A stretch of DNA of 10,417 bases from Mycobacterium sp. (GTDB taxonomy: Bacteria; Actinomycetota; Actinomycetes; Mycobacteriales; Mycobacteriaceae), in the NCBI GenBank assembly GCA_025965815.1, contig JAOPWF010000322.1, forward strand, positions 1 through 10,417, given 5' to 3'. This document shows, in pieces, positions 146-10,417 of the stretch. A model generated the notes under the pieces. The model ran no database searches. It was given only the letters and a program-made list of their open reading frames with translations, and was not told the origin of the DNA. Made by a program: the position numbers and the translations under genes. The number at the start of each line of letters is the position of its first letter. The stretch's first letter is position 1.

Positions 146-430
146 CGCTGACACCAAATGCCAGGCGATGGTGTGGGGTCCGGCGTCGAGGCCCGCGGTG
201 CGCAACTTGTTGCGGAGCTCGACGATCAGATCGATGGCGGTCTGCGGTAGTCGGGTCGGGCTGGTGTGCGGCCGACGCGACCGTGGCTCGAACGCAGCCT
301 CGCCCTCAGCCCGGTAGCGGGCTACGAGGCGGCTGATCCAGCCCTGCGAGACGCCGTACTCGCGGGCGACCGCCGACTGGCTCCGGCCTTCAACGACAAC
401 AGCGGTGATCACTAAGCGGGCTTTCGACAT
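137..430 (-). pseudogene. IS481-type transposase, N-terminal remnant
   Basis: This 97-residue ORF is the N-terminal DNA-binding part of an IS481-family transposase. Residues 1-40 (MSKARLVITAVVVEGRSQSA, then VAREYGVSQGWISRLVARYR) form the typical helix-turn-helix. They are followed by the basic FEPRSRRPHTSPTRLP linker and the start of the second helical domain (LIVELRNKLRTAGLDAGPHT). Family resemblance ends at IAWHL near residue 91. The next codons encode VSAVT and run into a TAA supplied by the terminal direct repeat. Full-length members have more than 300 residues with a DDE catalytic domain, all of which is absent. The simplest reading is an internal deletion joining codon 91 to the element end at about position 157. 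It cannot transpose by itself. It might still bind DNA, but nothing here shows that it is expressed. Confidence 0.85.
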
Positions 431-594
431 CCGCCGAAACTGGCCGACTCAGGCTATTCCGATGACTTGCGACACCCCAGTCGCATGTCCTGGATCACCA
501 CACTGTCCCCGCTACCAGGCAAAACGGCCCCCGGAGAACTCTCCGGGGGCCGGTTTCATGCCACTTGTGAACGGATTTGTGAATGTGAGCGTTG
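431..594. other. Intergenic region with terminator and TTGTGAA repeats
   Basis: This region is upstream of the transposase remnant and downstream of the integrase. It contains a small inverted repeat GCGAC-ACCCCA-GTCGC at 469-484, possibly part of the outer IS end, then the terminator described separately. No tRNA-like T-loop, cloverleaf or CCA end was found that would mark an integration site. Confidence 0.4.
522..556. terminator. Strong hairpin, probable bidirectional terminator
   Basis: A 12-bp perfect stem, GGCCCCCGGAGA at 526-537 and TCTCCGGGGGCC at 540-551, closes a two-base loop. It extends by a C-G pair at 525/552. An A-run on the left (521-524) and TTT on the right (554-556) give a short U-tract in either direction. 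It lies 38 bp beyond the integrase stop, so it would end minus-strand transcription from the excisionase/integrase genes. It could equally be an older host terminator. Confidence 0.75.
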
Positions 595-610
595 CTAACG
601 ATCTTGTGAA
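565..610. repeat. Three TTGTGAA heptamers at the integrase 3' end
   Basis: TTGTGAA occurs at 565-571, 577-583 and 604-610; the last copy lies inside the end of the integrase gene. Tyrosine integrases of integrated elements often have short repeated arm-binding sites next to their gene, so these are candidates. The motif is short and chance repetition is possible. Confidence 0.3.
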
Positions 611-1338
611 TCGCCATCCCAGGCGGATCCAAGGAGGAACGATGCCGCCTGCTCCGCCGCCTCGCGATCGTCGTTCTTGAGCACGTGGGCATAGGTCTGC
701 AGGAAGAATCCGACGTTGGCATGCCCGATGCGGTCGCTCACGACCTTTGGGCTCACGCCCGCCTTGAGCGCGCCTGTCGCATATGAATCTCGAAGGTCAT
801 GAAAGGTGATCCGCGATAGCCCCGCGGCCGCAGCAAGGCGCTCAAAGCGCTTCCTGATGGTGTCGGGGTGAGGTGGACGACCGTCCGGAAACGTGAACAC
901 GTAATCCCCGGGATGGTAATCGGTGCCGTAGAACTCGCGTTCCCGATCTTGAACCTTCCGCCAGTTCGGCAGGGCAGCGATCGTCGCGCGGTCGATGGCG
1001 ATCGTCTGGTCGGCGTTTTCAGTCTTGCCTCCCGCTTTATCGTGCGCACGTCCACCCACGACCACGCGGTTGTCGTGCACCGTGATTTCGCCGGCGTCCA
1101 AGTCGACGGAGTCCCATCGAAGTCCGCATACCTGGCCTCGGCGGATGCCGGTCGTGAGTTCCAGCAGGAACAGGGCGGCGAATCGATCGCGGCGGACCGA
1201 GGCGAGGAAAGTTCGGATCTCCTCGGTGCTCCACACCTGCCGACGAGTGCGAGCGCGCTTGGGCGGTTTGACGTGACTCGCAGGGTTGTCGTTGATGTAC
1301 TTCCAGGCGACGGCGTCGACCAAGGCGCGGTGAATCAT
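595..1338 (-). CDS. Integrase C-terminal catalytic fragment
   Basis: This 247-residue fragment carries the whole tyrosine recombinase catalytic domain. Visible active-site residues are R66 (TTGIRRGQVCGLRW), the probable beta-hairpin lysine K105 (GKTENADQTI), H180 and R183 (ITFHDLRDSYA), H206 (RIGHANVGFF) and the nucleophile Y216 (LQTYAHVLK), so the catalytic set is complete. Its ATG lies inside the overlap with the N-terminal fragment and is not a natural gene start: codons before it in the same frame still read as integrase (APKSVRNIHA). If made alone it would lack the arm-binding domain and most of the core-binding domain, so autonomous integration is unlikely. The ORF ends at the TAG at 595-597. 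Confidence 0.75.
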   Translation of the reverse strand: MIHRALVDAVAWKYINDNPASHVKPPKRARTRRQVWSTEEIRTFLASVRRDRFAALFLLELTTGIRRGQVCGLRWDSVDLDAGEITVHDNRVVVGGRAHDKAGGKTENADQTIAIDRATIAALPNWRKVQDREREFYGTDYHPGDYVFTFPDGRPPHPDTIRKRFERLAAAAGLSRITFHDLRDSYATGALKAGVSPKVVSDRIGHANVGFFLQTYAHVLKNDDREAAEQAASFLLGSAWDGDSQDR

Positions 1339-1922
1339 CGCGTGGATGTTCCGAACAGACTTGGGGGCCAGGCCGGCGGGATCGGCTTGGGAACAATGCC
1401 GGCGTTGAAACGTCGAACGGCAGCGCGCGCCGCGTGAATCGTGGTGTCACACGCAGCGGCGAACTGACGGGGCGTCGGACTTGCCCCTCGCGCCTCCTGC
1501 TCCGACCAGAAGGCGTAAATCGCGCCGTTGCGGTCCCGTTTGACTCTGCCCTCCGCGAGCAGCGTTCCGTACAGCTTCAGCAGTTGAGGCTCATTGAGCC
1601 GCTGAAGCCGTTCTTCGCCAATGCGGGGCAACACATAGGCATGCGCATAGTCCCTCCAGTTCTGCCAGGTCGTGGCGTCAACCGTCGGCTCGATCGCGGC
1701 AAGCCACTCGTCGAAGAACTGAGCGACGGTACGGGTCGAGGACCTGACCACCCTGCCGCGGTCGGCGTCGCGCATCGCCTCACGGCAGGCCTTCCAGGCC
1801 TCCTTCTCGGTGGGGAATCCACCCTTCGAAATCGACGGGTTCTGACCCGTCGCTGAGTCCTTCTCCGGGGCGAGGAACCGATAGGTCCACGTCCTGCCCC
1901 GCTGATACACCGAGCCTTTCAC
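1335..1922 (-). CDS. Integrase N-terminal DNA-binding fragment
   Basis: This 195-residue fragment starts with GTG at 1920-1922, overlapping the excisionase stop (GTGA), so the two are translationally coupled. Residues 1-60 (KGSVYQRGRTWTYRF, then GGFPTEKEAWKACREAM) look like the AP2-like arm-binding domain of integrases. Residues 64-135 (TVAQFFDEWLAAIEPTVDA, then QRLNEPQLLKLYGTLLAEGR) are the SAM-like core-binding domain. Residues 136-175 (FWSEQEARGASPTPRQFAAA, then CDTTIHAARAAVRRF) form an extra helical insert of a kind I recall from actinobacterial integrases. The last 12 residues are out of frame. A free arm-binding fragment could in principle still occupy attachment-site DNA, but no evidence here shows it. 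Confidence 0.75.
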   Translation of the reverse strand: MKGSVYQRGRTWTYRFLAPEKDSATGQNPSISKGGFPTEKEAWKACREAMRDADRGRVVRSSTRTVAQFFDEWLAAIEPTVDATTWQNWRDYAHAYVLPRIGEERLQRLNEPQLLKLYGTLLAEGRVKRDRNGAIYAFWSEQEARGASPTPRQFAAACDTTIHAARAAVRRFNAGIVPKPIPPAWPPSLFGTSTR

Positions 1923-2104
1923 GATGCCAGCTCACGAAGCCCGGCTGTCACCACGTAGACGCGCCCGCCCAGCCGGCGCACGGGGAGTTCGCCTGAGGCC
2001 ACCAGACGGTAGGCCGCCGCCCGGCTGATCCCCAGGAGCTGGGCCGCGCGAGGCACGGCGAGCAGAAGGGTCAGGTCGTTGAACACCTTGTCTTCCAATT
2101 TCAT
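1919..2104 (-). CDS. Excisionase-type helix-turn-helix protein
   Basis: This 61-residue protein contains one MerR-like winged helix-turn-helix of the excisionase (HTH_17) type. The segment LAVPRAAQLLGISRAAAYRL (residues 15-34) is the recognition unit, and VASGELPVRRLGGRVYVVTA (residues 35-54) is the wing with its usual basic residues. Such proteins bend DNA at attachment sites, bias the integrase towards excision and may repress their own promoter. The ATG at 2102-2104 is preceded on the minus strand by a GAGGGTGG ribosome-binding region. The gene ends in a GTGA overlap with the integrase, the standard xis-int order. It appears intact although the integrase behind it is broken. A purely regulatory role is the main alternative. 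Confidence 0.8.
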   Translation of the reverse strand: MKLEDKVFNDLTLLLAVPRAAQLLGISRAAAYRLVASGELPVRRLGGRVYVVTAGLRELAS

Positions 2105-2328
2105 TCACCACCCTCAGAGGAGTCATGTCGGATACGGCTTGTCCGAGATGCTGCACCCGCTGTGTGAGGTTGTCGCCCAATCAGCTTCGCGCCGCGGGCG
2201 ATTAGTCGCCTTGGTGTGTCATCAGGCTCCCAACATCACTGTAATTCTCCGCGGCGACACCTTTGTGCAGAATTTTGGCGCGACGCCTCACGGCGTTACT
2301 CGGCTATACCGTTCCCTGGAGGGCGGTG

Positions 2329-2433
2329 GTGAGCATCATGACCGATTCCCGAAAAGCTGACGTTGCCTCGCTCCTACCGTTGGAAGTCGGAAGGCGAGCC
2401 AGCGACTCGTCGCAGTGCGGCGACGTTGGCTGA
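2329..2433 (+). CDS. Possible 34-codon leader ORF
   Basis: GTG at 2329-2331 opens a frame of 34 codons ending at the TGA at 2431-2433, with an in-frame ATG at 2338. A good GGAGGG ribosome binding site at 2318-2323 is five bases before the GTG. The product begins VSIMTDSRKADVASLLPLEV and has no recognisable domain. It sits just after the TATACC box and 75 bp before gene A, so if real it could be a leader peptide of the operon. The evidence is only the ribosome binding site and position; chance is quite possible. Confidence 0.2.
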   Translation: MSIMTDSRKADVASLLPLEVGRRASDSSQCGDVG

Positions 2434-2493
2434 TTGCTCGAAATGTCGTGTGACCGCTCCTAATTTGCGGAACAATCACTACGTGCACCAGTT

Positions 2494-2502
2494 GGGAGGG
2501 GG
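2494..2502 (+). promoter_or_regulatory. Ribosome binding site of gene A
   Basis: GGGAGGGGG lies six bases before the ATG at 2509-2511 and supports this start for gene A. Confidence 0.7.
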
Positions 2503-2508
2503 ATCCCG

Positions 2509-3603
2509 ATGAGTATCGGGACTCTGGTCGCCGTCGCGGAGTCGACCGATCGGGTCTTGGCGGCCGGACGCAGATTGCAGGACGGGCGGGCAGACCCCGA
2601 CCGCGTCAGCTTCGCCACCGACCTTCTTGCCGACCGACTCGAGCAGAGTCTGGCCATCTTCGGAGCAGTGGGCACCCAGGGCTTCGATTCCGTGGGTGAG
2701 CAAGAAGCCGATTCGCCCGAGGACGAGCTCATCGTCGCCGCCAGCCAGTTGAGCATGGCCGGCGTGGCGCTGGCCGCTGACTCCCTTGACGGTGCGCTGG
2801 ACGTCGACCTGGACGCGGCGCTCGGTGATCTCGTCACCACCAACAACGCCGTGCAGCGGTTGGTGGCGCCGGCGGCCGGGCAGCGTTTCGATTCGGCGCG
2901 AGCCGCTTCGGTCGATCTGGCAGCCGCCATCAAAGGTCTTCGGGCCGCGACGGAAACGACCGTCGAGAACATCGCGACGATAGGCGCCAAGCTCTGCGAG
3001 CGGGTGCTGAAGTCGCTACCCGAAATGATCCCCTTCATCCAGAGCACCTGGGACACGATCAAGGCCACATTGAATCTAGAGGGGCTGGGAGACCAGCTTG
3101 GCCGGCTGGCCAAGCTGGCGCTCCGATTGATGGTCGCTGCACTCGACCGGCTCGCGAACCTCATCCCGTCGACTTTCATCCCCGCGGTCAGGGACCGCGT
3201 ACAGGCGCTCCTCACCCGACTCGACGAACAGCAGCCCGCCGTTGCGGTGTTCGGCACGGTGCTCGATATAGACGGCATCAACCGTGGTGTGAGTGCCCGA
3301 TTGAGCCGGGTCGGACTCGACAAGGCCAAACTCGACAAAGCGACAGGTTCCCTAGGTGCCCTGTCCGAGCAGTACGGCAGGTACATGGCCGCCGCGTCCA
3401 GGATGGCCAACGCGCTCAACCTGCTACATAAGTCCAGTGGTCTGCTGAGCACGTTCGCTCCCCAGATTCCCGCAGTCACTGCGGGCGCACATGCGGTGCT
3501 CCTCGTTGCCGTCGTCGCGATCAGTCTTGATTTCCTGGACACCGGCACCACGGTAGGCATCGTGCGGGGTGTGCGAATCACCATCGCGGACGCCACCGAA
3601 TGA
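2509..3603 (+). CDS. Gene A: helical protein with one C-terminal membrane segment
   Basis: I do not recognise this 364-residue protein as a member of a named family. It appears almost entirely alpha-helical, with amphipathic stretches at residues 5-55, 75-120, 128-165 and 190-245. The segment LGRLAKLALRLMVAALDRLA (198-217) is especially amphipathic and leads into NLIPSTFIPAVRDR. A single uninterrupted hydrophobic run, HAVLLVAVVAISLDFL (328-343), is a probable membrane helix close to the C-terminus, followed by a 20-residue tail. There is no signal peptide and no catalytic motif I can identify. It is the first gene of the A-D operon and overlaps gene B by ATGA. Its place beside a protease and a TPR scaffold suggests a membrane-acting effector or a protease substrate, but that is inferred from context alone. 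A membrane anchor for the complex is the main alternative. Confidence 0.8.
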   Translation: MSIGTLVAVAESTDRVLAAGRRLQDGRADPDRVSFATDLLADRLEQSLAIFGAVGTQGFDSVGEQEADSPEDELIVAASQLSMAGVALAADSLDGALDVDLDAALGDLVTTNNAVQRLVAPAAGQRFDSARAASVDLAAAIKGLRAATETTVENIATIGAKLCERVLKSLPEMIPFIQSTWDTIKATLNLEGLGDQLGRLAKLALRLMVAALDRLANLIPSTFIPAVRDRVQALLTRLDEQQPAVAVFGTVLDIDGINRGVSARLSRVGLDKAKLDKATGSLGALSEQYGRYMAAASRMANALNLLHKSSGLLSTFAPQIPAVTAGAHAVLLVAVVAISLDFLDTGTTVGIVRGVRITIADATE

Positions 3604-4745
3604 CTCGCGTCGCGGCGACCCCCGACGCCGTATTCCGGGCCCGCAAGGATCAGGAGCTGGCGAACCTGCGCAGTTTGTTGTCGGGGTTGAACATCGCGCC
3701 TGAGGAGGCAACGCAAGAGATAAAGGACCGATTCGAACAGCAGATCGCCAACTGCGTCAGACAGATTGACCGCGAAGCCATGGACACCACCACACTGCGC
3801 GAGATTCTTGATTCCAAGATCCGCCCGGTCGTCACCGAGGTGCAGGACTATTTGTACGCGGTGCTGTATCGCCAGGCCGGCCTGGACAACGGTGTCGGCG
3901 CCGTCGCGCACTGGATGTTGAACGACATCGCTCGTCGCGCTGGGGTGGAAAGGCGGGTGTTGCTTTCGATCGGTGAGGCCGAGCTCATCGAGCACACGTT
4001 CAGCATGATTCGAATGCGCCATCAGGACGCATCCGTGTGGCGACTACCGATTCTGGTGCACGAGCTCGGCCACCACGTCGCCCGCAACCTGCGCGACGTC
4101 AATCCGAACGCCTTCGCCATGTTGCCGGTCAAAACGTATTTGGAAGATGCGCGCGACGCCCGGGAGCACCGGCACCTCCACGAACTGTTCGCCGACGTCT
4201 TCGCGACGTACGTGCTGGGAGCTGCTTACCCGACCTGCGTGATCATCCAGCAGGCGCGACCGGACCAGGGTTTTCATGACCACGACCAAACGCACCCCTC
4301 CTGGCCGGCCAGGGTGCACATCATGCTCGGCGCGCTGCGCGCGATGAGCGCGATCGATCCCAAGGACGTCACGGCCGGGGCTTTCGCACAGATGGCCGAC
4401 CTGAATGTCGAACCGTTGTGGTCGGCGCTGACCGCCGAGTCTGCCGGCTCTGCCGACCCACCGACCCAACCCGAGCTGCGGGCACTGCCCGAGCGCGCGG
4501 CGGAGCTCGTCGACCTCCTGGTAAGGCATGCACCGGCGCGGCTGCGATTCCGGTTCGGACGCGCGTATGACCTTTCACGGGACCTGACTTCGCGAGACGA
4601 CCCAGCGCTACCGGAAGGGGCGACGATCACCCAGGTGCTAGACGCTGCCTGGCGATGGCGGGCGAACAACCTCTCCGCCAACGACAACGACCTCACCATC
4701 GTGAGCCGCAATGCGCTGCGCTGGTGCGAGGCCAGCACCCACTGA
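3600..4745 (+). CDS. Gene B: predicted zinc metalloprotease (HELGH)
   Basis: The 381-residue product has the hallmarks of a gluzincin-type metallopeptidase. ILVHELGHHV supplies zinc ligands H154 and H158 and the catalytic base E155. About 40 residues on, HELFADVFATYVLG supplies a probable third ligand E195 and the conserved D199. THPSWPARVHIM (H232, P233, R238) matches the HP...R segment seen after the active site in M48-like peptidases. Residues 15-70 are a helical, probably coiled region. Residues 75-110 (from RPVVTEVQDYLYAVLY) and the C-terminal part near LDAAWRWR (347-354) recur in gene C. No membrane helix or signal peptide is seen, unlike classical membrane M48 proteases, so it is probably cytosolic. 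The ATG overlaps the stop of gene A (ATGA), showing tight coupling. The substrate is unknown; products of A, C or D are candidates. The metalloprotease call is strong, the exact family uncertain. Confidence 0.88.
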   Translation: MTRVAATPDAVFRARKDQELANLRSLLSGLNIAPEEATQEIKDRFEQQIANCVRQIDREAMDTTTLREILDSKIRPVVTEVQDYLYAVLYRQAGLDNGVGAVAHWMLNDIARRAGVERRVLLSIGEAELIEHTFSMIRMRHQDASVWRLPILVHELGHHVARNLRDVNPNAFAMLPVKTYLEDARDAREHRHLHELFADVFATYVLGAAYPTCVIIQQARPDQGFHDHDQTHPSWPARVHIMLGALRAMSAIDPKDVTAGAFAQMADLNVEPLWSALTAESAGSADPPTQPELRALPERAAELVDLLVRHAPARLRFRFGRAYDLSRDLTSRDDPALPEGATITQVLDAAWRWRANNLSANDNDLTIVSRNALRWCEASTH

Positions 4746-4750
4746 GGAGG
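4744..4750 (+). promoter_or_regulatory. Ribosome binding site deciding the start of gene C
   Basis: GAGGAGG begins within the stop codon of gene B and lies three bases before the ATG at 4754-4756. It supports this start over an in-frame ATG at 4655 that lies inside gene B and would add 33 low-complexity residues. Confidence 0.7.
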
Positions 4751-4753
4751 ACG

Positions 4754-6145
4754 ATGGCCAGGGATGAGTTGCTGATCATCCGCCTCGAGGAGTTGAAAGA
4801 AGACGTCGCGCTGGTTGGCAAAATGCTGAGCAGAGCGACGACGAGGGGCGACCAGCTGACCACGGTGAGCGAGGTGGTCAAACTGGGCGGTGACGGCACC
4901 ATCGGCCAGTCGTTGGCGAGTGCACGGTCCAAGGTCGACCTGCTGATCAGCGACCTCAGCAGCGACGACGAGGTCACGCACCGGCTGGATGAGCTCCAAA
5001 AGGATCTCAGCGAGGCATACAACCGACTGGGGACTGCGGCCGGGGCCGCGGCGGTCGTCGGAGAACGCATGCGAGACCTCGACAGCATCATGCAGTCAGA
5101 ACACCAGAAGATCGAGGACAGCCTGTTCTACAGCCTCGACATGATCACCAAAATCCAAGCCGTCATCAACACGCTCGACTCGGACATAGATCAAGTGGCC
5201 GCCTGGAACAAGTTCGACAAACTCATCGACGAGTGCGAGCCGTTGTTCACCGACTACGTGGATTTTCTCAGCGGTGTCGCGCTGCGCGACTATCGGCTCG
5301 ACGATGGCGTGGCAACCCTCGCCGATCGAGTATTCAAGGAACTCGTCGTCGGCGGTCTCGCCGTGCCGGCCCGCCACGGCGATTTGCCAACCAAACTGGC
5401 CAGTCTGGCGAAATTTCAATTTCCCGAATGGACCGTGTGGGATGTTCCGCTCGCCGGCTACCACGCCGGACTGTCCCGGAGCAGCAGCATCGGAGAGTCG
5501 ATCATCGACGACTTTCGCGCCAACCATCCCACGACGTTCCCATCGGCAGCGTTCGCCAAGCAAATGTTCGCCGAAGTGTACGCAACCTGCATGGTCGGCC
5601 TGGCCTATGGCTACGCCGCCCTCCTTCTGCATCTACACCCCCGCAAAACCCGGCGGACCGAGGACAGCCCATCCGCGGCCGATCGCGCCACGGTCATCCT
5701 GGCCACACTGGACTCCTACAGTCGCGACGACCCCGCGTTCGGTGCACACGTCAAGCGGCTGAGCGACTGGTGGTCCGTTGCGGCCGGTGGCGCGACCGTG
5801 TCCGAAGACGACGTCGTATTGTTCACCGACTTCGCATCGCGCGTGGTGTCGGACCGGCTCGCGAAGGGCACACGGCCAGCCCCCTACGACCCCGCTCGGT
5901 GGCATGGCGCAACCGACGGCGTGACAACCAAGGCTCACGTCGATCCTGGACGACGACATGCGCTGGTGCGAGACCAGCTGAATGCCATCTGGCACCTTCG
6001 GTTGACCGATCCCGCGACCGTGGCCGGTCTCACCGCAGACGACCTGGCCTCCACCGTTCGGCATGGCCGATCGGCCGGCCCGGCGGCCACCCACACCCTG
6101 CAACGGCAGGCCCGACCTACGGAGGCAGGCGGCTTCGGTGGCTAG
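4754..6145 (+). CDS. Gene C: inactive metalloprotease paralogue with helical N-terminus
   Basis: The product has 463 residues. Residues 1-160 are long helices, probably coiled coil (IIRLEELKEDVALVGKMLSR, then THRLDELQKDLSEAYNRL). The remainder aligns with gene B. EPLFTDYVDFLSGVALR (162-178) matches RPVVTEVQDYLYAVLYR of B; VWDVPLAGYHAGL (228-240) matches VWRLPILVHELGH; KQMFAEVYATCMVGLAY (269-285) matches HELFADVFATYVLGAAY; and SPSAADRATVILATL (305-319) matches HPSWPARVHIMLGAL. In these alignments H154, E155, H158 and E195 of B become Y236, H237, L240 and Q270, so no zinc site or catalytic base remains. It is a pseudoprotease, plausibly a regulatory or structural partner of B. The hydrophobic stretch at 275-294 corresponds to the active-site helix of B and is probably not a membrane span. 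Its stop overlaps the start of gene D by 8 bp. Confidence 0.85.
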   Translation: MARDELLIIRLEELKEDVALVGKMLSRATTRGDQLTTVSEVVKLGGDGTIGQSLASARSKVDLLISDLSSDDEVTHRLDELQKDLSEAYNRLGTAAGAAAVVGERMRDLDSIMQSEHQKIEDSLFYSLDMITKIQAVINTLDSDIDQVAAWNKFDKLIDECEPLFTDYVDFLSGVALRDYRLDDGVATLADRVFKELVVGGLAVPARHGDLPTKLASLAKFQFPEWTVWDVPLAGYHAGLSRSSSIGESIIDDFRANHPTTFPSAAFAKQMFAEVYATCMVGLAYGYAALLLHLHPRKTRRTEDSPSAADRATVILATLDSYSRDDPAFGAHVKRLSDWWSVAAGGATVSEDDVVLFTDFASRVVSDRLAKGTRPAPYDPARWHGATDGVTTKAHVDPGRRHALVRDQLNAIWHLRLTDPATVAGLTADDLASTVRHGRSAGPAATHTLQRQARPTEAGGFGG

Positions 6146-9100
6146 CAGCGGACACGACGGGAAATCACACATCGAGCTCGCGATCGGTGACAAGGGCCGA
6201 CCGGTGGACAAGATTGCCTCGGTGCGCAACTCAGCCAACGAATCTCCGCTGGCGCGGCTGCGCAGACGCCTGGAAAAGGCCCGCCGGGCGCATCGCGCTG
6301 GCGACCTGGCGAAGGCGTTTGAACTTGCCCGCAAGGTGATCGAGGCTGCGGACGAGCTTGCGCCCCGCCCAGAAGCGGTCGCCATCGGCGGCTCGGCGCA
6401 TGTGTTGATCGGCCATGTCGCCGACGCCGCGGGCGACCCCGATGGCGCCGAGGCGGCATTCAGCACTGCAATCGGTCTGCTTCAGGACGCGAACGACGTC
6501 GTGTGGATGAGTGGCGACCATGTGGCAGATCTCGGCGTCGCCATGGTGATGACCGGCGCGCCCAATGGCGGCGCCCCGTTGCGACAAGCCATCAAGCTAG
6601 GCAACGACACGGCCCTTGTACGGCGGTTCCTGGGGCTCTACCTGCTCGGCGACGGTCAGCTCACCGAAGCAGAAAACCTGCTGAGGGACGTCGTGCAGCG
6701 TGAGCCGGGCGATTGGCGCGCCTGGCGTGGACTCGCCATGATCGCCGAGAACACTGCCCCTGCCGATGATGCCGCGACGCTCTGGTTGACCGTCGCGGAG
6801 AAGATCAAGGATGCCGGCCGGGTCGAAGACGCGCTGGTGGCCTACCTCGCCGCCGACCGACTGTCACCCTCTCTCGACGCCAAGCGCGGCGCGGCCAATT
6901 CCCTGTCGCGACTTGGCCGTTTCGCCGAGGCGGAAGAGATAGCAACCAAGGTCCTGGCGGTCGACCCGGACGACTATCAGATAAGGGTGGTGCGCGTCGA
7001 GGCGCTCCTTGGAATGGACCGCTTTGCCGACGCCGCGACCAGTGCGCGCGAGTTGGCCCAGATCGATCGCTCCGACCCCGTAGCGCACGCCTACCTGGGC
7101 ATGGCGATGGGGGGGCTCGGCCAGCACGACGAGGCACTGGCCGCACTCCGGGCTGCCCAGCAGCTTCTGCCCGAAAGTGCGCCTATCCAAGCACTTCTGG
7201 CCAACGCCTTGGCTGCGACGGGTCAGACCGACGAGGCGATGCGCGTGCTCGCCGAGGGAATCGAGCAGAACCCCGATGACCTGGACCTGCGACTGGCCCG
7301 CGCCGAACTGGCCGCCGCCGCAGCTGATTTCGAGGCGGCGGCAGCCGACGTGGCCGCGATTGAGGCCCTCGAACCGTCCCGAGCGCCTTGGCTTTGGTTG
7401 GGCCAGAGAATGGCGGTGCGCGGGGATCTTCAGCGCGCGCTCGATGCGGTTGACCGAGCACTCGCCGCCCTGCCCAATGACGCATACGCGCTTGGCCTCC
7501 GCGGAGCGATTCTGACCCACCTCGGCCGGATCGCCGAGGGCATCACATCGCTGCGCGAGAGTGTGGAGCGAGAGCCGAACGCACTCGCTCTCAACAGTCT
7601 CGTCGTCGCGCTGATGCGCCCGGGAGCTGAAAGGAACGTCCAGCAGGCGGAGGAGTTCGCCCGCCAGCTGGTCGATCTGGAGCCGGATGATGTCGACAGC
7701 GCGGTCGCGCTCACTCAAGTCCTGCTCGCTAGCGACCGCGCCGCTGAGGCAATCGATGTGATCGAGGCCGCCGCCCACCGGTGCCCTCCGGACCGCGACT
7801 TGGAATACCAGCGGGCTCGGGCGCTGCTCTTGCTTGACCGGCCACAGGACGCCATCGAGGTACTCGACGCGGCCGCCAACCGATTCGGGCCAGGCGGCGG
7901 CTTGGAGGATCTCAGGGCACGGGGGCTCGTCGCCCTGGGCAGGCTGCCGGAAGCGGTCGCCGCCGCCGAGCGCGCCGCCGCCGAGCAGCCAGACAACGCC
8001 AGCGTGCACGCCCATCTCGGCCAGTTACACCGCGACCTTGCCTTGGTCGACGACCATGTCGACGACCAGCACATGTCGGCTGCCGTTGCGGCGCTTACGC
8101 GAGCGATCGAACTCGATCCGGACGATGTCGACTCCACAACCCTGCTGGGCCAGCTGCACGGCGAACGAGATGAACTGGATGACGCCGAACGGCTGCTTAG
8201 CAAGGCCAGATGGCTGCGGGAGGTGTCCGGCGCCGACGTGGACGCCTTCGCACTCGCCGATCTGGGCCGCATTTGGCATCTCAAGGGTGACCACGAGGCC
8301 GCGCTCGAGGCGGTCGACGAGGCCATTCGACTCGACGACAGGTCCGGCAATGCCCTGCTGACCAAGGGCGAGGCGCTCTACGCACTCGACAGGTATGCCG
8401 AGTCGGTCGAAGCTCTGCAGCAAGCGCTACTCAGGAAGCAAGGGCAACTCACGAAAAAGGACGAGGCCTACCGGTTATCGAGGCTGGGCGAGTCATACCG
8501 GATGCTCGACGAGCTCGGCAAAGCCGACGCCGCCCTAACTGAGGCGCTGGAACTCGCGCCCGGCGACGCGTATGCGCTGGCCAGCCGCGGCGCCGTCCGC
8601 TACACGCTCGGCGACGTCGAATCGGCCGAGACAGACCTTCGGGCGGCGCTCACCGAGGCGCCGAGTTATCAGTTCGCGCTGGAACGCTATCTTCTAGTGC
8701 AATTGGACCTTGGCCGGGTGGATAACGCCCTTGCGGCGTGGCGGAAAGCGATCGCGGTCGCGCCGGAGGATGTCGAATTCCAAATCGGGTACGCGGACAC
8801 GCTGCGGCTGGCGGGTCAGCTAAGTGACGGCCTTCCGGTCATCGAGCAGGTGCTTCGAGACCAGCCTACGCACGTGATGGCCTTGCGAGTCTTCGGGCGC
8901 ATGTTGCTCGAGCTCGGTCGAATCGACGAGGCCGCAGCGCAATTCGAGCGGGCGCTGGCCGCAGACCCAGATTCGGCGGACGCGGCCATCGATCTTGCCA
9001 AGGCGCTGGACAACCAGGGCAGACCGTGGAGCGCCCTCAAGACGATTCGGGCTGCCCTCGACCGGAACCCGACCGGGCAGCTGCTCGTTGACCACGGCTG

Positions 9101-9776
9101 GAGGCTGGCGAAGCTGGCAGCTTGGCCCGACGCGATCGCCTCCGCGCGGCAGGCGCGGGAGCTCGACCCCGGCAGCCCAGCGTCCTACCAGCTCCTCAGC
9201 TGGGTGCTGCCGATAATCGGAGATCGCGAGGAGTGCGTGGAGGCCGCCGCCGAGGCCTTGCGACTCAGCCCAGAGAACAGCTGGAACCACAAGCAACTAG
9301 GCAACACGCTTTGGTGGGTTGGCCGAACGGCCGAGGCGATGCGGGAATACACCTGGGTGGCCGAGCGGGCCGATCTCATTGCGGACGACGACGCGCAGGG
9401 GCTACACCTTCTCGGGTGGTCGCTTATGTGTCTAGGCGAGCACGCGCGAGCGGCGGGCTGCCTGTCCAAGGCCGTCGCACTTGGCTTCGACGAGCTGTCC
9501 GCCCTGTTCGACCTCGGAGTGAACTCGCTGGCCGCTGGTCAGATGGCGGAGGCGCTCGGCACGTTTGCCGAAGCCCTATCCCTCGTTGACCGCGACCTGT
9601 CCGGACAGAGTGCCTCTCCCGAGCGGGCGCTGGCCCACCGTGGTTCGATTGCGGTCGCCATCTACGACCTGCAAAGCTCGGTCGCAGGAGACCGGCTGCC
9701 GGCGTCGGACGAGGTTGACGGGCTGGTTGCCCAGCTCACCGAGCGGCTAGGCCGTTTGTCCCTGCCGGCCGAGTAG
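6138..9776 (+). CDS. Gene D: giant tetratricopeptide-repeat protein
   Basis: The 1212-residue product is almost entirely tandem tetratricopeptide repeats, roughly thirty by eye, starting near residue 50. Typical units are AHAYLGMAMGGLGQHDEALA, YRLSRLGESYRMLDELGKAD and FGRMLLELGRIDEAAAQFER, each with the small residues at TPR positions 8, 20 and 27 and a proline near 32 (LDPDD, LAPGD, EAPSY). Residues 1-40 are polar and may be disordered. No catalytic domain, membrane helix or NTPase motif was found, so it should form a long solenoid for protein binding. The chosen start is GTG at 6138, with GGAGG at 6121-6125, overlapping gene C by 8 bp. An in-frame ATG at 6063 would overlap C by 83 bp with proline/arginine-rich residues; GTG at 6204 and 6222 are other options. 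In context it is a likely scaffold or sensor for the B/C pair. Confidence 0.9.
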   Translation: MASSGHDGKSHIELAIGDKGRPVDKIASVRNSANESPLARLRRRLEKARRAHRAGDLAKAFELARKVIEAADELAPRPEAVAIGGSAHVLIGHVADAAGDPDGAEAAFSTAIGLLQDANDVVWMSGDHVADLGVAMVMTGAPNGGAPLRQAIKLGNDTALVRRFLGLYLLGDGQLTEAENLLRDVVQREPGDWRAWRGLAMIAENTAPADDAATLWLTVAEKIKDAGRVEDALVAYLAADRLSPSLDAKRGAANSLSRLGRFAEAEEIATKVLAVDPDDYQIRVVRVEALLGMDRFADAATSARELAQIDRSDPVAHAYLGMAMGGLGQHDEALAALRAAQQLLPESAPIQALLANALAATGQTDEAMRVLAEGIEQNPDDLDLRLARAELAAAAADFEAAAADVAAIEALEPSRAPWLWLGQRMAVRGDLQRALDAVDRALAALPNDAYALGLRGAILTHLGRIAEGITSLRESVEREPNALALNSLVVALMRPGAERNVQQAEEFARQLVDLEPDDVDSAVALTQVLLASDRAAEAIDVIEAAAHRCPPDRDLEYQRARALLLLDRPQDAIEVLDAAANRFGPGGGLEDLRARGLVALGRLPEAVAAAERAAAEQPDNASVHAHLGQLHRDLALVDDHVDDQHMSAAVAALTRAIELDPDDVDSTTLLGQLHGERDELDDAERLLSKARWLREVSGADVDAFALADLGRIWHLKGDHEAALEAVDEAIRLDDRSGNALLTKGEALYALDRYAESVEALQQALLRKQGQLTKKDEAYRLSRLGESYRMLDELGKADAALTEALELAPGDAYALASRGAVRYTLGDVESAETDLRAALTEAPSYQFALERYLLVQLDLGRVDNALAAWRKAIAVAPEDVEFQIGYADTLRLAGQLSDGLPVIEQVLRDQPTHVMALRVFGRMLLELGRIDEAAAQFERALAADPDSADAAIDLAKALDNQGRPWSALKTIRAALDRNPTGQLLVDHGWRLAKLAAWPDAIASARQARELDPGSPASYQLLSWVLPIIGDREECVEAAAEALRLSPENSWNHKQLGNTLWWVGRTAEAMREYTWVAERADLIADDDAQGLHLLGWSLMCLGEHARAAGCLSKAVALGFDELSALFDLGVNSLAAGQMAEALGTFAEALSLVDRDLSGQSASPERALAHRGSIAVAIYDLQSSVAGDRLPASDEVDGLVAQLTERLGRLSLPAE

Positions 9777-10113
9777 CCCCGTCGGGCCCTGGACTACCGG
9801 TCGGTGAAGTCGGCCAGCGACGTTGGCAGATCGGTGGGATGGGTGTTCACGACCAGGACGCGTCGGCGGAGCCAGTGCCTTGGCGGATGCGAAGAAGGCG
9901 GCGGACGCCGAGGGGACTACCTCTTTCGATACTGGGCCGTCGGATGCGGCTCCAACCTCTTGAACTGCGAATTTCTGTCACTGCCAACGCAGTCAACCGT
10001 CGCAAACGCCCAAGTCGACTCGTTCGCATCGAGTAGGTCAGGGCTCACCATGCAGCCTGTTTTAGGCGTAGAGCGCGACCTCTGGACATGCACGGGTAGG
10101 TGTCGGCACGGCG
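9777..10113. other. Intergenic stretch, no intact gene
   Basis: This is a 337-bp gap between two convergent genes. No strong terminator is seen; a short GCCC-CGTC-GGGC hairpin at 9776-9787 right after gene D is weak. The element's right junction with the chromosome may lie here. I looked for a copy of the sequence around 540-610 that would mark the second attachment site and found no convincing match. The possible gene remnant at its left side is listed separately. Confidence 0.4.
9794..9919 (-). pseudogene. Possible C-terminal remnant of an unknown gene
   Basis: Between two minus-strand TAG codons (9917-9919 and 9794-9796) a 40-codon frame ends in RVLVVNTHPTDLPTSLADF followed by TDR and stop. 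Most of the last 22 codons end in G or C with ordinary choices for a high-GC actinobacterium, and the alternation of hydrophobic and polar residues looks like real protein. There is no start codon or ribosome binding site, and the upstream frame (PRRPPPSSHPPRHW) looks out of phase. It may therefore be a decayed gene tail, perhaps cut by insertion of the element. I cannot name the family. Confidence 0.25.
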
Positions 10114-10416
10114 CTAGCCGCGATACCGGTCGACGAGTGCGGAGTATTCGTCAAGCACTCGAAGCGATTCGGCGAGCGGCAGGGTGGGCAACAGAAGCGC
10201 TAGCGCTAGCTGGCCGAAACCGAGGTCTTCGGCGGCGCGCCAGTAGTCAGGTTTATTGGGCGTGCCGAACATCGCCAGCGGTACATCGCGTCCGGCGCCG
10301 TCTCGCATCTGGTCGATGCGTTTGGTCAGTGCCTCGACGGGCAGAGGGTTGGATATCCAACCCGCGTCATGGCGGATCACTCGTTTGACGGTGGCATCGG
10401 AGTCGCCGCCGATGTA
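10114..10416 (-). CDS. Luciferase-like (F420-type) oxidoreductase, C-terminal part
   Basis: The minus-strand frame is open from the window edge to the TAG at 10114-10116 and gives about 100 residues. YIGGDSDATVKRVIRHDAGW, then the segment beginning ISNPLPVEALTKRIDQM, and FGTPNKPDYWRAAEDLGFGQ followed by LALALLLPTLPLAESLRVLD, are the C-terminal signature of bacterial luciferase-like monooxygenases, including many F420-dependent enzymes. The flavin or deazaflavin site itself lies mostly in the missing N-terminal part, so the cofactor and substrate are not determined. The gene is cut by the window edge; the first in-frame GTG (10378-10380) is internal, not a start. It is convergent with gene D and is probably host chromosome flanking the element. 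Confidence 0.8.
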   Translation of the reverse strand, partial: YIGGDSDATVKRVIRHDAGWISNPLPVEALTKRIDQMRDGAGRDVPLAMFGTPNKPDYWRAAEDLGFGQLALALLLPTLPLAESLRVLDEYSALVDRYRG

Positions 10417-10417
10417 G

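Follow-up and report, generated by a model that had tools for sequence, protein, structure and literature searches.

The window (the whole 10,417-nucleotide stretch that we analysed) comes from a mycobacterium-like bacterium. It carries four adjoining plus-strand genes with tight junctions, A, B, C and D, which span 2509–9776 and lie between minus-strand integrase and xis-like genes on one side and an attachment site on the other:

595..1338, minus strand: catalytic piece of the integrase, in a different frame from the N-terminal piece; locus L001 agrees without gaps here
1335..1922, minus strand: N-terminal piece of the integrase (arm-binding and SAM-like domains)
1919..2104, minus strand: xis-like HTH_17 protein
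2509..3603, plus strand: gene A, 364 aa, helical, with a single hydrophobic segment near the C terminus
3600..4745, plus strand: gene B, 381 aa, putative zinc peptidase with M48-type motifs
4754..6145, plus strand: gene C, 463 aa, paralogue of B with an extended N-terminal part, predicted to be catalytically inactive
6138..9776, plus strand: gene D, GTG start, 1212 aa, TPR protein
9956..10015, no strand assigned: element-side attachment flank, from comparison with sibling loci
10016..10043, plus strand: attachment core, whose 28 bases all match the anticodon arm of the genus's tRNA-Ala(CGC)

Gene order and junctions are as the sequence-only reading had described them. The start of B overlaps the end of A by ATGA, an 8-base gap with a Shine-Dalgarno-like sequence (GGAGGACG) separates B from C, and C and D overlap by 8 bases; an alternative, longer ATG start for D lies at 6063. 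We regard the operon as more than a chance arrangement because it is conserved, and not on the ground of its open reading frames alone. Scans of 2000–10417 gave no promoter and three terminator-like sites against 4.2 expected, and no Rfam family was matched at gathering thresholds over the whole window.

B has the motifs of a zinc peptidase. Its H154-E-L-G-H158 stretch is an HExxH motif kept in all 25 aligned homologues (of 27 matches), and H154, E155, H158, E195, D199, H232, P233 and R238 are invariant in this alignment. The BepA paper (PMC7950410) gives HExxH, a Glu and an HPx4R plug as the motifs of M48 peptidases. The Glu that follows HExxH in B is E195 (25/25), a candidate third zinc ligand by comparison with E201 of BepA, and the plug motif is H232-P-x4-R238; in 25/25 homologues it falls 30–140 residues past HExxH and fits the pattern described in that paper. 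The earlier call of an HELGH metalloprotease is thus upheld at the level of conserved residues. Pfam-A returned no PF01435 (M48) match to B at E up to 1, and PF01435 matched two of the 25 homologues weakly (best E 0.67). A PDB sequence search reached E 0.2 at best, and Foldseek against viral models found nothing at E up to 0.001. Among the matches to B, zinc peptidases rank below designed helical repeats, and we did not count them as proof. By eye, B has no apparent signal peptide.

C is paralogous to B (profile-profile E 7.9e-19 across 264 columns). In the 7 aligned C homologues the HELGH of B is replaced by YHAGL (YHAGM in one row), and HExxH, the Glu and the plug His are gone from all of them, while the P and R of the plug are retained in all. 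Judged by these residues, C is a conserved pseudoprotease, homologous to an active-type enzyme without its catalytic residues, and its description as an inactive paralogue of B stands. Two weak Pfam rows, T4SS (0.002) and SctB2 (0.043), might have suggested a secretion component; we rejected this, as both rows map to the helical region at the N terminus and score under the curated cut-offs.

D is the TPR protein of 1212 residues that had been proposed: 12 TPR_2 and 14 TPR_16 stretches pass individually, with a best TPR E of 4.5e-61. A likewise matches its description as a helical protein with one membrane segment. Residues 322–340 are strongly hydrophobic (mean Kyte-Doolittle 2.24), a segment lies at the corresponding position in 9 of 9 aligned proteins, and a conserved short tail follows it; A is probably tail-anchored. 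What found no support is the idea that A is cleaved or released to damage the membrane. A matches nothing in Pfam, PADLOC or PHROGs and one NCBIfam model below its cut-off, and its predicted model (pLDDT 37) is too poor for fold comparison, with gasdermins or otherwise, so we claim no fold for it. We found nothing that bears on pore or cleavage, and rejected a pore, considered on the ground of resemblance, for want of evidence.

The unit probably sits on an integrative element. As had been read, int/xis genes lie directly beside the operon (595–2104, minus strand), with the tyrosine integrase split over two overlapping frames. To this we add an attachment core that repeats the tRNA-Ala(CGC) anticodon arm without a mismatch and is preceded by a flank of the element type. 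Compared with its element-side counterparts, this flank (9956..10015) is identical at 27–41 of 60 bases for 13 sibling loci; for two further loci the counts are 18 and 21 of 60. The element has an integrase in two frames, an excisionase and an attachment core at a single end. Neither a second end nor a restored tRNA gene was found in the window, from which attL and the tRNA 3' half are missing; the other end may lie outside, because the contig, all of which is in the window, belongs to an assembly that is 81% complete.

Relatives of B are patchily distributed across the genome draws. The B profile found the source genome and one partial match (G633), and a first look, which passes few candidates, did not find the unit in any of the 395 further genomes drawn for the genus. 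These absences are soft, since few candidates were scored per genome and C of the source genome was reported in one of four draws; there the B profile matched C at E 7.0e-11, and C went unreported in the other three draws made with that profile. Plasmid and phage records searched with B yielded no confirmed relative, nor did viral contigs searched with profiles of A, B and C. Whether the genes stay together received a mixed answer for A, B and C. Some of their matches elsewhere fall on equal-sized contigs, which supports linkage indirectly, but 20 of the 26 non-self B matches, including all 18 at ≤43% identity, have no A or C match on an equal-sized contig. Either sensitivity is low in such cases, or B may also work without A and C.

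We consider the unit accessory and not housekeeping, because the first look with its few candidates did not find it in the 395 drawn genomes and because it lies beside int/xis and the attachment core. This bears on an unlikely alternative, membrane-protein quality control in the manner of BepA/HtpX, where B, guided by TPRs, would trim or degrade membrane proteins, A serving as the anchor and C as a holdase. The HExxH, conserved Glu and HPx4R plug of B, together with a TPR partner, do recall E. coli BepA, whose TPR cavity is required for function (PMC7950410), and the hydrophobic segment of A would suit such a role. However, BepA is described there as a periplasmic, single-chain protein. In the window the TPRs are on a separate 1212-aa protein, a dead paralogue is encoded next door, and B has an extra helical N-terminal part and lacks the Pfam M48 match.

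All seven B matches with a named organism are from actinomycetes (Mycolicibacterium, Pseudonocardia, Mycobacteriales, Amycolatopsis, Asanoa), several of which have complex life cycles. This, with the split integrase, speaks for developmental or stress-signalling proteolysis near an old integrase, A being a membrane-held regulator released by B. The patchy distribution argues against that reading, as does the lack of any DNA-binding or sigma-factor match for A, and we rate it the least likely of the alternatives considered here.

Two lines of context point towards conflict. First, distant B relatives lie downstream of CHAT and NTPase-type genes in two of four readable genomes (G633 and G626), and the NTPase-type gene has weak TPR-type matches in both. 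Second, elements at the same tRNA carry defence genes: one sibling region encodes a reverse transcriptase of the DRT kind together with a helicase of restriction type, another a HEC-01 pair. (Family scans covered 20 selected ORFs, all from L040–L043, L050 and L051; L044–L048 were seen as raw reading frames only, and L049 and L052–L055 as core positions and tRNA scans only.)

An addiction or toxin-antitoxin-like module that retains the element, with B or A toxic and C and D restraining it, would agree with the element linkage, the overlapping genes, and two genes of sibling elements, one of HipA type (L050) and one with a nucleotidyltransferase domain (L040). Yet A, B and C match no family of toxins or antitoxins above cut-off, and addiction modules seldom comprise four genes and a scaffold of 1212 aa. 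We find it just as improbable as quality control. Less probable again is a satellite function, in which the unit would act on a helper phage, for example by cleaving a capsid or packaging protein, in favour of element spread. Phage head genes do occur in siblings at this tRNA (major head in L041; terminase, portal and major head in L042), and PMC10654092 describes PICIs of Mycobacterium that carry tyrosine integrases and use tRNA genes as insertion sites, a likeness that extends here to the xis-like gene and the core in tRNA-Ala(CGC). Against this, no structural or packaging gene was recognised in the window, where a scan of A–C gave no PHROGs match, capsid and packaging matches included. The window also differs from such elements in lacking attL and the tRNA 3' half.

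The combination had not been recognised as a described system, and it proved to be none that we could find: a PADLOC 2023 scan gave no listed anti-phage defence system, and a literature search found no such system. Like CHAT/caspase-TPR systems it joins a protease to a TPR protein, but A–D have no CHAT, caspase or NTPase domain among the matches listed (best 25 of 33 for D). NTP-dependent conflict systems are reported to include metallopeptidases, dead peptidases and TPRs (PMC7159879, PMC8195603), but among the same matches (best 25 of 33 for D) there is no MoxR, vWA or STAND domain. B also shares its HExxH...HPx4R pattern with the E. coli T4 exclusion protease Lit (U49), as noted in PMC7950410; a phage capsid peptide activates Lit, which cleaves EF-Tu (PMC9712102). 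Pfam-A gives B no family at E up to 1, and thus no sequence relation to Lit/U49. The U49 model was presumably in the library used. To our knowledge, Lit needs neither a paralogue nor a TPR scaffold for its action.

Taken together, the four genes resemble a proteolytic switch that has not been described and may serve defence; our reading is a plug-gated protease under TPR control on a mobile element, with a probable role in conflict. Building on the observed gene order, motifs, paralogy and attachment core with its element-type flank, we infer that A, B, C and D would act together as a single unit of regulated proteolysis, borne by an integrative element that targets tRNA-Ala(CGC), and give this best explanation a probability of about 0.45. 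B would be a zinc protease of the cytosol, built like M48 enzymes, and its HPx4R plug would keep the active site shut. C, the conserved dead copy, would bind B or its substrate and help to gate B; D, a TPR solenoid, would be a platform for sensing a trigger and for delivering B/C to the target. A, tail-anchored and helical, would hold the unit at the inner membrane and is the best candidate for its first substrate. As to purpose, conflict with phages or rival elements seems most likely. Of the earlier protease/TPR conflict reading, the active/inactive pair, the TPR protein, the mobile location and the conflict-type context are retained, without A as membrane-damaging effector.

A bolder version, which we think less likely, is an undescribed immune module of mycobacterial integrative elements. 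D would sense a phage protein, B, held by its plug and dead twin, would open and cleave the tail-anchored membrane protein or a host target, and infection would stop; the same protease lineage would also have been recruited into actinomycete CHAT-NTPase systems. Most of the protease-based immunity known from bacteria relies on cysteine or serine proteases. If true, the pairing of a plug-motif metalloprotease with a conserved inactive twin and a giant TPR protein of its own would represent another means of restraining a protease and opening it when needed. Small elements at tRNA-Ala(CGC) are, moreover, a defined place in mycobacterial genomes to seek further systems, and 10 fetched regions of the genus show direct repeats of the core with one intact tRNA.

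Genes A-D are a real four-gene unit. We reproduced both the arrangement and the junctions (ATGA, 8-base gap, 8-base overlap) that the sequence-only reading had given:

2509-3603, plus strand: gene A, predicted helical protein with a hydrophobic segment; ATGA overlap with B
3600-4745, plus strand: gene B, zinc peptidase; 8-base gap before C
4754-6145, plus strand: gene C, inactive paralogue of B; 8-base overlap with D
6138-9776, plus strand: gene D, 1212-residue TPR protein, last of the four on this strand

The source assembly is fragmentary (81% complete), and the window is one entire contig of 10,417 bases. A locus from an Actinomycetota metagenome assembly (L001) matches window positions 337-8735 with 3 mismatches and no gaps, and holds part of D. 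Judging from relatives such as a 60% identical B homologue in Mycolicibacterium wolinskyi, the host is probably mycobacterium-like. We recognised no description of the gene set in the open literature searched, a scope that excludes most subscription papers; as far as these searches go, the unit is undescribed.

That B is an M48-like protease with a conserved dead twin, C, is well supported. The two align in profile-profile comparison over 264 columns (E 7.9e-19). In all seven aligned C homologues (an eighth match, P0035, was omitted as a 324-residue fragment) YHAGL or YHAGM stands in place of HELGH, Q, K or R in place of the Glu of ELFAD, and S, G, N, C or D in place of the His of the HPx4R plug, whose P and R are kept. 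That the altered site is conserved speaks for a dead enzyme kept by selection, not a gene in decay. Protein A is predicted to be helical, at very low confidence; its single hydrophobic segment lies near the C terminus, in the same position in 9 of 9 aligned proteins, and is followed by a conserved tail. The earlier proposal that A damages membranes is unsupported. D is a TPR protein: its matches are distributed along a large part of the chain, those listed extending from around residue 170 to 1144.

How might these proteins work together? By our reading of the sequences, B, C and D have no apparent signal peptide and are therefore taken as cytosolic, and A would be tethered to the membrane through its tail. 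Excerpts of PMC7950410 describe the peptidase BepA as requiring plug movement for activity and its TPR cavity for function. Transferred by analogy to A-D, this would give D the recognition role; C would either dock on B or have a substrate in common with it, and A would serve as anchor or substrate. The same excerpts give the peptidase Lit the motif pattern of BepA-type plug peptidases, HExxH...HPx4R, which B also fits, and an extract of PMC9712102 describes Lit as a protease triggered by phage; such an enzyme can thus serve phage exclusion. For A-D, a conflict function is the likeliest reading.

Linkage of A, B and C in other genomes was gauged by a proxy, equal length of the longest contig per protein cluster, as the protein search does not give neighbouring genes; D is linked to them in the window and, in part, in L001. 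One length (8868) is common to A, B and C; B and C share 8822, 61917 and 7388792, the last from Mycolicibacterium wolinskyi, whose B homologue is 60% identical to B; A and B share 3716 and 4818; A and C share 9140 and 8344. By this measure most non-self matches of A (5/8) and C (6/7) have a length in common with another member, whereas only 6 of 26 non-self B matches share one with A or C. The other 20 include all 18 at ≤43% identity. The partners of these distant homologues may be too divergent for the searches, or there may be none.

B is rare in our samples. In three samples, from the phylum (396 genomes), the family (301) and the genus (396), its profile matched a single genome, the window's own. 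Of 394 class genomes it matched 2, the window's own among them. These four samples overlap, and absence is soft because few candidates were scored per genome; C of the own genome was reported in just one of the four samplings.

The second class match, a partial one (residues 152-212, E 3.7e-4), is in genome G633. This peptidase has HEVGH, GEVFAD and a plug-like P-x4-R lacking the His, and lies directly 3' of a CHAT-domain gene (E 1.4e-22) and an NNH1-match gene (1.4e-9) that also has sub-cutoff AAA and ANAPC3 (TPR-like) matches. As a query against 197 class genomes it retrieved proteins in G442 and G540; the G442 protein in turn matched 4 of 35 genomes of its family, G442 itself counted. G626 repeats the order, with a CHAT gene (7.2e-18), a gene matching NACHT and TPR families below cut-off, and a peptidase. 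The two runs of CHAT, NTPase-type and divergent HExxH-peptidase genes are:

G633 (locus L007), 2636-10577
G626 (locus L017), 382-10020

B-type peptidases thus stand behind CHAT and NTPase-type genes in two of the four relatives with a readable neighbourhood (the contig of G540 is too short to count). The trio may itself form a separate conflict system. In G442 and G682 the relatives, which retain HExxH and HPx4R, have different gene neighbours. The first (L010, 4684-9029) has HEVSH and HPVPYLR and adjoins two more genes, one with a PUD-domain match; the second (L016, 5589-14535) lies inside a multigene run whose last gene is NlpC/P60-type.

The right flank of the operon matched 123 of 128 genus genomes. 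Two main types stand out among the matches listed: some hit a luciferase-like oxidoreductase gene, from around position 10110 onward, and others end in the 28-mer 10016-10043. This 28-mer is an exact copy of the tRNA-Ala(CGC) anticodon arm and has a single occurrence in the window, as in the window's own genome; ARAGORN placed it inside tRNA-Ala(CGC) at 7 of the first 10 sites. It is an attachment core common to small integrative elements of the genus. We fetched 16 regions with candidate second copies and counted cores at up to 4 mismatches: eleven have two, four have one and one has none. Each two-core region has one intact tRNA-Ala(CGC), and in 10 of the 11 the cores form direct repeats with a spacing of 2.8-11.6 kb; in the remaining one, L044 (G1119), they lie at 930 and 8098 in opposite orientation.

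The 60 bases left of the window core are identical to element-side copies at 27-41 positions in 13 loci (18 and 21 in L043 and L048), but to the tRNA side at only 10-16 in 11 loci. Positions 9956-10043 thus look like an element end; the sequence after the core is non-tRNA. In the window we found neither the other end nor tRNA halves. A tyrosine integrase (595-1922, minus strand) is split over two overlapping frames, and L001 matches the window ungapped there. Its catalytic piece distantly matches 6 of the 16 regions (L040-L043, L051 and L055; 24-28% identity, E 9e-6 to 3e-18).

Family scans of 20 chosen ORFs from six of these regions gave the following cargo:

L050 (G1024): reverse transcriptase RT_UG32 (DRT; E 1.9e-236), 1205-residue Mrr/ResIII helicase, HipA
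L051 (G1034): HEC-01A (1.5e-83) and HEC-01B (9e-25; its DUF4276 match slightly below cut-off)
L040: nucleotidyltransferase domain
L043: AAA_25 and an ORC-like match
L041 (G1103): major head protein; satellite-like, same tRNA
L042 (G1106): terminase, portal and major head protein; satellite-like, same tRNA

The cargo of L050, which has no match to the window integrase, and of L051 lies between repeats of the core. The tRNA-Ala(CGC) site thus carries defence genes among other things, as seen in selected ORFs. The head, terminase and portal genes of L041 and L042 fit the satellites that excerpts of PMC10654092 report at Mycobacterium tRNA genes. By eye, the reading frames of L044-L048 look metabolic or decayed.

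An IS481-type transposase remnant occupies 137-430; within 1-430, alongside this remnant, a repeat containing GGGGAATTACGTGAC occurs three times at 72-147. Just beyond the integrase end is a strong, terminator-like inverted repeat (521-556; 17-base arms, 94%). On the right, a cut-off gene (10114-10416, minus strand) encodes a luciferase-like F420-type oxidoreductase, whose best match in G1038 is separated from the tRNA-Ala core by about 4.3 Mb.
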